Assembly (NCBI GenBank): GCA_001563875.1
Contig: LKMN01000005.1
Location: 1 to 38,680, forward strand
Source: Nanohaloarchaea archaeon B1-Br10_U2g1
GTDB taxonomy: Archaea; Nanohalarchaeota; Nanosalinia; Nanosalinales; Nanosalinaceae
Direction: 5' to 3'
DNA: 38,680 bases
Shown here: piece after piece, positions 1,384 to 23,460 of the stretch
How the letters are laid out: each line of letters starts with the position of its first letter
How positions within the stretch are numbered: the first letter of the stretch is position 1
Notes under the pieces: model-generated
Databases searched by the model: none
The model's input: the letters and a program-made list of their open reading frames with translations, nothing else
Told to the model about the DNA's origin: nothing
Translations under genes and position numbers: made by a program

Positions 1384-1521
1384 TGGGAAAGCCGGGAATC
1401 GAACCCGGGACCTCTGCGTATCTCACAAAACCTTTATTTAATCATCAAGGTCTCTAAGACCTCTCATAGCTCATAATTCTTTGTTATGAGCGCAGCGCTC
1501 TAACCCCTGAGCTACTTTCCC
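1384..1521 (-). tRNA. tRNA with CAU anticodon, probably elongator tRNA-Met, containing a 65-nt intron
   Basis: The minus strand folds as a tRNA: acceptor GGGAAAG/CTTTCCC (1515-1521 with 1385-1391), D stem GCTC/GAGC, anticodon stem CTGCG/CGCAG (1491-1495 with 1414-1418), T arm CCGGG-TTCGATT-CCCGG, discriminator A at 1384, CCA not encoded. Anticodon CAT is at 1488-1486. The intron is 1484-1420, between positions 37 and 38, leaving a 73-nt mature tRNA. Elongator Met is most likely because introns at this site are common there. The C34-modified Ile2 tRNA has the same gene anticodon and cannot be excluded from sequence alone. An initiator is unlikely. Confidence 0.9.
1420..1484 (-). other. Archaeal tRNA intron with a canonical bulge-helix-bulge splice site
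   Basis: Both junctions form a complete bulge-helix-bulge. The anticodon stem is followed by a 3-nt bulge ATA, a 4-bp central helix CTCA/TGAG (1490-1487 with 1425-1422), the second 3-nt bulge TAA, and a CAAA/TTTG helix. Cutting each bulge after its second base gives exactly the exon ends required for a 7-nt anticodon loop. Inside the intron, AGGTCT (1448-1453) and AGACCT (1457-1462) form a 6-bp hairpin with a 3-nt loop. Splicing would need the archaeal tRNA endonuclease, which is not in this window. Confidence 0.88.
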
Positions 1522-20853: not shown

Positions 20854-20874
20854 TTCTATCCCTTTTTTTAGTTA

Positions 20875-20905
20875 CGCCTTGATGATCCAAGGTTTGTGAA
20901 AGGTG
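20875..20905 (+). promoter_or_regulatory. Candidate kink-turn (L7Ae-binding) switch in the L7Ae mRNA leader
   Basis: The leader can fold as a kink-turn: outer stem CGCCTT (20875-20880) with AAGGTG (20900-20905), 3-nt bulge GAT (20881-20883), tandem G.A pairs from GA (20884-20885) and GA (20898-20899), then a U.U pair and a weak inner stem. The 3' strand of the outer stem is the Shine-Dalgarno AGGTG. An alternative hairpin pairs CCTTG (20877-20881) with CAAGG (20888-20892) and leaves the Shine-Dalgarno free. The two folds exclude each other. L7Ae binds kink-turns and represses its own translation in some archaea, so autoregulation is proposed. The inner stem is weak, so certainty is moderate. 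Confidence 0.5.
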
Positions 20906-20914
20906 AAACAATTA

Positions 20915-21286
20915 ATGGCATACCAAAAATTTGAACCAGGAGAATCACTATCAGAAAAAACCTACAATGCAGTGGAAAAAGCTGACGAAACCGGAAAAGT
21001 AGTAATTGGTACTAACGAAGTCACCAAAGCTATTGAGAGAAATGAAGCAGAACTTGTTGTAATCGCTTCAGACGTATCCCCGGAAGAAATCGTTATGCAT
21101 CTGCCAGCACTTTCAGAAGAAAGAGATATTGCATACACGTTTGTACCTGAAAGAGAAGAGCTAGGACTTGCAGCAGGAATCGGAGTACAGTCCGCAACAG
21201 TAGCAATAACATCTTCAGGACAGGCAGAAGACGACGTACAAGATATCGCTTCAAAATCCCGCGAACTACTTGAAAAAGAGGAATAA
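20915..21286 (+). CDS. rpl7ae: Ribosomal protein L7Ae (eL8), also box C/D and H/ACA RNP core
   Basis: Binds kink-turn RNA in the ribosome, in box C/D and H/ACA guide RNPs and in RNase P. The 123-aa protein has GKVVIGTNEVTKAIERNEA (the RNA-binding NEVTK region), VIASDVSPEEIVMHLP and LGLAAGIGVQSATVAI. I chose the ATG at 20915. An in-frame GTG at 20903 lies in the Shine-Dalgarno and would add 4 residues. Downstream are S28e and L24e, as in other archaea. Nop5 and fibrillarin, its partners, are at 34.5-36.4 kb. Confidence 0.96.
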   Translation: MAYQKFEPGESLSEKTYNAVEKADETGKVVIGTNEVTKAIERNEAELVVIASDVSPEEIVMHLPALSEERDIAYTFVPEREELGLAAGIGVQSATVAITSSGQAEDDVQDIASKSRELLEKEE

Positions 21287-21297
21287 AGTGAGTAAAA

Positions 21298-21474
21298 ATG
21301 GTAGCGGCAAAAGTAGTTGAAGTAATAGGAGACCAAGGACACAGAGGAGTCCGAAAAATCCGCTGCCGGATCCTCGAAGGTAATGAAGAGGGTAAGATTC
21401 TAGTAAGGAACGTTCGAGGACCTATCAGGGAAGACGACGTAGTTCACATAAAAGAGACACAGATGGAGGGATAA
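21298..21474 (+). CDS. rps28e: Small ribosomal subunit protein eS28 (S28e)
   Basis: 30S protein at the exit channel, 58 aa. The frame contains VIGDQGHRGVRKIRCRILEG and VRNVRGPIREDDVVHIKETQ, the S28e pattern. It starts 11 nt after L7Ae and ends 3 nt before L24e, so it is part of the same operon. Confidence 0.97.
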   Translation: MVAAKVVEVIGDQGHRGVRKIRCRILEGNEEGKILVRNVRGPIREDDVVHIKETQMEG

Positions 21475-21477
21475 ACA

Positions 21478-21630
21478 ATGGAATGTAACTACTGCGGAAA
21501 AGAGGTAGAAAAGTCAAAAGGCAAGATGCTGGTACAGTCAAGCGGAAAAAGACTGTTCTTCTGCTCAGGAAAGTGTCAGAAAAACTGGGAGAAAAACAGG
21601 AGCCACAGCTACCCTGACAAAGAGGAGTAA
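21478..21630 (+). CDS. rpl24e: Large ribosomal subunit protein eL24 (L24e)
   Basis: 50S protein, 50 aa, with the zinc pairs CNYC at the N-terminus and CSGKC in the middle, and KRLFFCSGKCQKNWEKNR typical of eL24. The L7Ae-S28e-L24e order is conserved in archaea. Nucleoside diphosphate kinase, which commonly follows before the IF2 gene, is absent here: the next gene is aIF5B, 72 nt downstream. Confidence 0.97.
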   Translation: MECNYCGKEVEKSKGKMLVQSSGKRLFFCSGKCQKNWEKNRSHSYPDKEE

Positions 21631-21702
21631 AATCCTCGCGTAACCTATTTTCTATCTTATTTTAAATCAAAAAACCGCTGAAAACAAGGAGAACAATCTA
21701 AA

Positions 21703-23460
21703 ATGCCTCGACAACCAATTCTATCAGTACTTGGACACGTAGATTCCGGAAAGACAACACTGCTTGACAGTATAAGAGAGTCACGTATAACTGAAGGAGA
21801 GTCTGGAGGCATAACACAGATGATAGGAGCTACAGAGGTTCCTATAGGAACTGTCCAAGATGTATGCGGTGATCTTCTGAACACTTTGGAGACAGACCTA
21901 ACTATTCCTGGCCTATTATTCATAGATACTCCGGGACATGCAGCTTTTTCCTCACTTAGAAAAAGAGGAGGCTCAATAAGCGATATAGCAGTTTTAGTCG
22001 TTGATGTAAATCAGGGAGTCCAGCCACAGACAGAAGAAGCGATAAACATACTAAAAGAGTCAGGTACGCCGTTTGTAATTGCTTTAAACAAAGTTGACAC
22101 CTTGAACGGTTGGATAACAGAGGACAAATGCTTCTCAAAAAATATACGGAACCAGAGCGACCGAGTAAAAGACATGCTCGACCAGAAAATATACGAGCTG
22201 ATGGCAGAGTTCAGCGAGCACAGCGTAACTGTCGACAGATTTGACAGGGTTGACAACTTCCAGAAAAAAGTCGCTGTTGTACCAATGTCCGCAGAGACAG
22301 ATGAAGGAATACCTGAACTACTGATGGTGGTAGCAGGTCTTTCACAACGCTATCTTGGCGACCAACTTGAAGTAGATGAGGGAATGGGTAAAGGAACCAT
22401 ATTAGAGGTCTCACAGGAACAGGGATTAGGCACCACCATAAACGTCATCCACTATGACGGAGTTATTGAAAAAGAAGAGACGCTTGTATACGGTACAGCA
22501 GACGGAGCTAAAACAACTGAGATAAGAGCGCTGCTTCAGCCACAGCCATTGAAAGAGATAAGACTTGATAGACAATATCAGAGAACAGAAAGGGTTGAAC
22601 CTGCTTCAGGTATTAAGATAACAGGAAGAGATCTAGAAGGAGTCATATCAGGAGCACCAATAAGAACAGCTAAAGATGACGAGGTTGAAAAAGCTATAGA
22701 AGAGGTCGAAGAAGAGCTCGAAACCACAGACTTTGAACCTGAAAACCAGGGAGTGGTTGTAAAAGCAGACTCACTAGGGTCTCTTGAGGCAGTTATGCGA
22801 GAGATAAAGGATGAAGATATACATGTACAGAAAGCAGAGGTAGGTTCCATAACAAAAGGAGATATAATAGAAGTACAGAATGAGGAACCAAGTCATAGAG
22901 CTGTTTTAGCGTTTAACGTTGACTTCACTGAACAAGGAAAAGAAAAAGCACTTCAAGAAGGGGTAGAGGTCTTCAGGAGCGATATAATCTACGAGATAGT
23001 TGAAAACTATCAGGACTGGCGTGAGAACTTGGAGAACAGACAGAAGGAAGAGGCATTAAACAATATATCTAGACCTGCTAGGATAGTTTCAATGCCAGAA
23101 CACGTTTTTAGGACTTCCAACCCGGCAGTACTAGGTTTTAAGGTTGTTGAAGGTGTTCTGACTCCAGGAAGCAGTTTGATGGATACAGATGGTAACGTTG
23201 TAGGAACCGTGAAAAGTATACAGGAACAGAATGATACGGTAGAGAAAGCAGAGAAAGGAGATCAGGTAGCTGTCTCAATCTCGAACGCTACAGTAGGTAG
23301 AGATTTTGAAGAAGGCGATGAACTTCTAGTAAACCTGACAGGTAGAGAGTACCAACAGCTAAAACATCTGGAAGAACTTCTAACAGCTGGAGAGAAGAAG
23401 GTTAGGGAAGAGATAGTTGATATAAAAGATAGAGAGAATCCTCACTGGAAAATTGTTTAA
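21703..23460 (+). CDS. infB: Translation initiation factor aIF5B (IF2 homologue)
   Basis: GTPase that promotes subunit joining and initiator-tRNA placement. It has G1 GHVDSGKT, the switch region RITEGESGGITQMIGA, G3 DTPGHAAF, G4 NKVD and four domains over 585 aa, close to the usual archaeal length without a long N-terminal extension. The C-terminal domain that binds the initiator tRNA end (about 480-585) is complete. It ends exactly 1 nt before the converging orphan gene. Confidence 0.96.
   Translation: MPRQPILSVLGHVDSGKTTLLDSIRESRITEGESGGITQMIGATEVPIGTVQDVCGDLLNTLETDLTIPGLLFIDTPGHAAFSSLRKRGGSISDIAVLVVDVNQGVQPQTEEAINILKESGTPFVIALNKVDTLNGWITEDKCFSKNIRNQSDRVKDMLDQKIYELMAEFSEHSVTVDRFDRVDNFQKKVAVVPMSAETDEGIPELLMVVAGLSQRYLGDQLEVDEGMGKGTILEVSQEQGLGTTINVIHYDGVIEKEETLVYGTADGAKTTEIRALLQPQPLKEIRLDRQYQRTERVEPASGIKITGRDLEGVISGAPIRTAKDDEVEKAIEEVEEELETTDFEPENQGVVVKADSLGSLEAVMREIKDEDIHVQKAEVGSITKGDIIEVQNEEPSHRAVLAFNVDFTEQGKEKALQEGVEVFRSDIIYEIVENYQDWRENLENRQKEEALNNISRPARIVSMPEHVFRTSNPAVLGFKVVEGVLTPGSSLMDTDGNVVGTVKSIQEQNDTVEKAEKGDQVAVSISNATVGRDFEEGDELLVNLTGREYQQLKHLEELLTAGEKKVREEIVDIKDRENPHWKIV

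Follow-up and report, generated by a model that had tools for sequence, protein, structure and literature searches.

A conserved kink-turn around the Shine-Dalgarno and a predicted competing hairpin in the l7ae leader of nanohaloarchaea

The window is the whole stretch of DNA that was analysed, 38,680 nt from a nanohaloarchaeon with a genome assembly of 0.71 Mb, and the phylum sample used for comparison comprised 28 genomes. The l7ae gene (20915-21286, plus strand) starts with the ATG at 20915. Its homologues were found in 28 of 28 genomes of the phylum, and the alignment runs from the same ATG. ORFs resembling S28e, L24e and IF-2 lie closely 3' of l7ae (20915-23460), and feedback on l7ae might also reach these downstream ORFs.

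Transcription in archaea usually starts ~30 nt past the first T of the TATA box. Counted from that T, the TATA box of l7ae is 71 nt from the ATG, as an earlier sequence-only reading of this DNA had stated. The first nucleotide of the C-stem described below is 31 nt past the same T, and this distance is 29-35 nt in most phylum leaders. By this promoter geometry, the l7ae transcript would start at or just before the kink-turn stem. Most other long ORFs in the window are without an SD-like element near the start, which agrees with the earlier claim that the neighbouring first genes are leaderless. The l7ae ATG is preceded by AAGGTG, which we take to be the Shine-Dalgarno (SD). The 16S 3' end TGGATCACCTCC was searched in the host's own assembly and was not found there; GGATCACCTCC is present in 18 of the 28 phylum genomes.

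Table 1. Features of the l7ae promoter and leader, in window positions
Feature	Position	Strand	Basis
TATA box of the l7ae promoter, TATAAAAA	20844..20851	+	Read from sequence; TATAAAAAA-like box kept in family leaders
Transcription start region, predicted	20870..20876	+	First T of TATA + ~30 nt; TATA-to-stem 29-35 nt in most leaders
CGCCTT, 5' strand of C-helix and anti-SD strand, common to both folds	20875..20880	+	CCTT invariant in 13 distinct family leaders
GAT, three-nt kink-turn bulge (L1-L3)	20881..20883	+	GAT in 22/27 leaders, strict grammar
GA, bulged-strand half of tandem G.A pairs (1b, 2b)	20884..20885	+	Invariant in family leaders
TC, 3b and 4b; U.U with 20897, C-G with 20896	20886..20887	+	4b:4n C-G kept in CCAAGG leaders and L010
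CAAGG, decoy strand for CCTTG 20877-20881, plus G20876.U20893	20888..20892	+	Kept in nine leaders of six genera; nascent fold -7.7 kcal/mol
GTGA, 4n, 3n and GA of non-bulged strand, box D-like	20896..20899	+	GA kept in grammar-matching leaders
AAGGTG, Shine-Dalgarno and 3' strand of C-helix	20900..20905	+	Ten nt before ATG; pairs with 20875-20880

Read as RNA, 20875-20905 is CGCCUU-GAU-GA-UCCAAGGUUUGU-GA-AAGGUG, with 12 nt between GA and GA. The C-helix has six pairs, one of them G.U, and is followed by the 3-nt bulge GAU and two sheared G.A pairs. By this layout the segment is a predicted box C/D-type kink-turn with the l7ae SD inside its outer stem. The letters and coordinates given by the sequence-only reading were all exact on re-check, including those of CCTTG and CAAGG, and so were its inner pairs U.U, C-G, C.U and A-U. 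That reading regarded the weak inner stem as its main doubt. It need not count as a doubt, since published l7ae leaders are also unable to fold without L7Ae (PMC6298567). Daume et al. reported that L7Ae binds its own 5' UTR and that a reporter is repressed, and described kink-turn strands in l7ae leaders across archaea (PMC5539422). Huang et al. showed that metal ions do not fold the A. fulgidus element, whereas L7Ae does, and that the folded element conceals the ribosome-binding site (PMC6298567). These two studies bear out the earlier statement that L7Ae autoregulation through a 5' UTR kink-turn is established in some archaea. Because the A. fulgidus element folds on L7Ae and not in metal ions (PMC6298567), a weak inner stem is what the mechanism would need here.

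The kink-turn was then described by a grammar of at least three Watson-Crick pairs beside NNN-GA...GA with an SD-like 3' strand; the strict form has the GAU bulge. The loose grammar was matched by 23 of the 27 phylum l7ae leaders, against 0.37 expected from dinucleotide shuffles, and the strict GAU form by 22 of the 27, against 0.03 expected. Among 297 leaders of other ORFs in the compared DNA, three matched the loose grammar and none the GAU form. The SD-containing grammar appeared in none of 200 dinucleotide shuffles of the host leader. The pattern CCTTGATGA-N(5-18)-GARAGG had 21 matches in the 28 genomes, 16 of them before l7ae, and the reversed control had 2. Two more leaders, L020 and L024, share this layout, with stems of GCC/GGU. 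The homologous leaders thus strongly support the kink-turn proposed by the sequence-only reading. A covariance model put the l7ae leaders of the family first, these leaders being also its training set, and an Rfam search of the leader gave no match up to E 1. The grammar of opposite polarity was loose and its matches were left unused.

No kink-turn was found in the l7ae leaders L017 and L022. Both have TATA-like boxes near the start codon, which suggests a shortened or lost leader. L026 gave a kink-turn-like match that was discarded: its TATA is only 9 nt upstream, and the 5' strand may be untranscribed. In L016 (J07AB43), the first l7ae codons and the remainder of the gene stand in different frames (ATGGCTTACCAAGAAATTTG), probably by a sequencing or assembly error. 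From the motif and its conservation, and by analogy with the published homologues for binding and repression, kink-turn autoregulation of l7ae is very probable. Such a feedback element is in itself ordinary for archaea. Judged against the main text of PMC5539422, it would extend L7Ae kink-turn feedback to nanohaloarchaea as a candidate.

The leader has a second predicted fold. CCTTG pairs perfectly with CAAGG in the loop, and this pairing excludes the C-helix of the kink-turn. CCTTGATGAYCCAAGG is common to nine leaders from six genera (g1, g2, g3, g4, g7 and g10), with a 16-nt core that has one variable position. In this set of nine, the 4-fold degenerate sites of l7ae pool to 44% pairwise identity, and the upstream spacer has diverged. 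When the nascent leaders were folded with the SD left out, seven of the nine gave about -8 kcal/mol and two gave -5.2 and -5.5, and the anti-SD strand was paired in all of them. Most members of the family likewise have this strand base-paired in their nascent leader.

The strongest rival explanation is an ordinary L7Ae OFF switch, in which the free leader is unstructured or weakly and variously folded, and CCTTG/CAAGG is a by-product of an AAGG-containing loop without any role. A free leader of this kind has been described in A. fulgidus (PMC6298567). A by-product would sit poorly with hairpin arms that are nearly invariant though the silent sites are saturated, and with the p of ~0.007-0.022 obtained for the host-leader hairpin when the loop was shuffled and the kink-turn letters were kept fixed. 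It would also sit poorly with the replacement of the loop. Altered loops re-pair with the same anti-SD strand, by GAGGC in L010, by TCGAGG or TTGAGG in g11 and by TCAAG in g6, and the replacement loops of L010, L012, L013 and L018 all pair with this strand. The decoy of L010 alone is not significant (p 0.18-0.32). The ordinary OFF switch gains from the three genera-level lineages and the other families that lack or alter the hairpin. In genus g9 the decoy pairing is absent in L011 and weak in L014; most leaders with short outer stems are without a decoy hairpin; and in the other families of the phylum a second hairpin was not seen, except in one doubtful leader, L026. Fisher tests, which treat related leaders as independent and use representatives picked after the folds were seen, gave p 0.004 when each type was represented once, 0.023 when the CCAAGG class was dropped and 0.82 in the other families of the phylum. 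The statistical support for a decoy hairpin is thus moderate.

The covariation check that the sequence-only reading had proposed found no covariation beyond shuffles in either helix, which also fits the ordinary OFF switch. The SD is fixed by the 16S rRNA and CCTT is common to both folds. Only the decoy strand is free to vary, so this test cannot decide. The two-state overlap noted in the earlier reading held up moderately well, in that the exclusive hairpin is real at the sequence level and most of the family has retained or re-created it; the hairpin is missing in L011 and weak in L014. By these comparisons, the predicted second hairpin is a family-level trait. In a tree of IF-2, L7Ae and S28e, CCAAGG leaders are on several branches of the family, and g2 has both CCAAGG and GAGGC. 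The deep forks of the family tree are poorly supported and decoy changes were not counted on it; the pattern fits an old putative decoy that was replaced in some lineages. When the whole leader is folded, the SD is predicted to be fully open with a probability of 0.16 in the host and less than that in most relatives, since early codons offer it a further pairing partner. Weighing these points, we consider the ordinary OFF switch rather doubtful and still a serious contender.

The reading we prefer is a leader with two exclusive states. The 5' end of the l7ae mRNA would be close to the box C/D-type kink-turn. During transcription, the anti-SD CCTTG would pair first with the decoy CAAGG, which is transcribed earlier than the SD and so is available sooner. 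This would leave AAGGTG without a partner, and L7Ae would be translated. When L7Ae is in excess of its other RNA targets, it would capture the kink-turn fold (GAU bulge, tandem G.A, U.U and C-G), the anti-SD strand would leave the decoy and pair with the SD, and translation would drop. From the sequence, conservation and energies of the decoy hairpin we infer the switching and the folding order, and its role as a functional second state is somewhat probable. For kink-turn feedback and a decoy second state taken together, the balance also tips modestly in favour. A wider proposal is made tentatively: in a family of nanohaloarchaea the L7Ae leader may be a bistable protein-responsive switch, where a decoy copy of the SD core takes the anti-SD strand during transcription, possibly since, in molar salt, a strong kink-turn stem could otherwise shut off the SD with no L7Ae present. 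A working decoy would answer how a leader that needs an open state without protein copes with high salt and moderate temperature, both of which make RNA folds more stable. If true, the element would be a compact protein sensor of ~30 nt whose shared strand pairs either with a decoy or with the genuine ribosome-binding site.

The strengths of the two helices were compared across archaea. In 34 kink-turn leaders with near-duplicates removed, a stronger C-helix went with a stronger decoy (Spearman 0.68, and 0.59 against the shuffle-corrected p), a correlation that is largely driven by the host's family. Of the leaders outside the family whose C-helix is long, L130 carries a competing hairpin (p 0.01), and L157, L132 and L146 do not. 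L130 belongs to an archaeon outside the phylum; ~40 nt upstream of its l7ae are an eight-pair C-helix, AAATCACT/GGTGGTTT, and a hairpin CTGAT-GAAA-ATCAG. It may be an independent instance of this design. The haloarchaeal comparison consisted of two divergent plasmid-borne copies and was uninformative. For kink-turns, U:U at 3b:3n is intermediate and C:G at 4b:4n favours ion-induced folding (PMC5689011). The host leader has U:U at 3b:3n and C:G at 4b:4n, together with the predicted competing hairpin. At the salt level of such a cell, a strong C-helix with a 4b:4n C:G might sequester the SD even when no protein is bound, and the decoy might prevent this closure.

Two further rivals fare worse. 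CCTTG-N6-CAAGG could be a transcription-factor operator in the DNA around the start site, as it is a perfect inverted repeat near the predicted start with both arms conserved. The host's own genome has a single copy of the repeat, the one at l7ae, and in the other genomes its frequency is close to that of the reversed control; without enrichment of other CCTTG-N6-CAAGG sites this reading is unsupported, and the pairing in L010 and g11 uses G.U, which is kept only by RNA. An operator is very improbable. Least probable of all, and rejected, is a guide RNA of the box C/D type that lies within the leader or is cut from it. UGAUGA and UGA look like boxes C and D, and an L7Ae-bound small-RNA data set is rich in the 5' UTR of S. 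acidocaldarius l7ae (PMC5539422), but the leader reads with one C-like and one D-like element and no second C'/D' pair, its inter-box loop is 5-17 nt in the family with the SD inside the stem, and Rfam gave no match.

A separate observation concerns a tRNA gene in the window. This intron-containing gene with anticodon CAT (1384-1521, minus strand) was found by Rfam match and is not listed by ARAGORN. Its intron has a kink-turn-like GACC-TTGATGA...GTGA, which is the second-best match of the l7ae-leader model in the host's own genome (E 0.02), and carries TTATGAGC, complementary to the tRNA's own GCTCATAA, followed by ATGA. Box D places guided 2'-O-methylation, and by this rule the intron could guide 2'-O-methylation of C34 of its own tRNA.

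Translational riboswitches and the autoregulatory leaders of ribosomal proteins are familiar systems of a related kind. As in these, two exclusive helices of the host leader would share the anti-SD strand, with the ligand selecting the closed one. The host leader would differ in that the encoded protein itself acts as the ligand, with one small kink-turn serving both for binding and for sequestering the SD. S15 has been named as an autoregulatory ribosomal-protein case (PMC6298567). The host leader resembles the kink-turn of archaeal box C/D sRNA in its UGAUGA and UGA boxes and in U:U at 3b:3n. In contrast to box C/D, where a G:C at 4b:4n is conserved (PMC5689011), it has C:G at this position, lies in an mRNA leader, holds the SD in its C-helix and has no guide. 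It is closest to the l7ae leaders of S. acidocaldarius (PMC5539422) and A. fulgidus (PMC6298567), with the same gene, 5' UTR position, GAU bulge and tandem G.A, the SD in or beside the kink-turn stem and a weak protein-free fold expected. The free A. fulgidus leader RNA is largely single-stranded (PMC6298567), whereas the host leader has a conserved predicted hairpin on the anti-SD strand. Relative to the l7ae leader descriptions in PMC5539422 and PMC6298567, this competing hairpin looks new.
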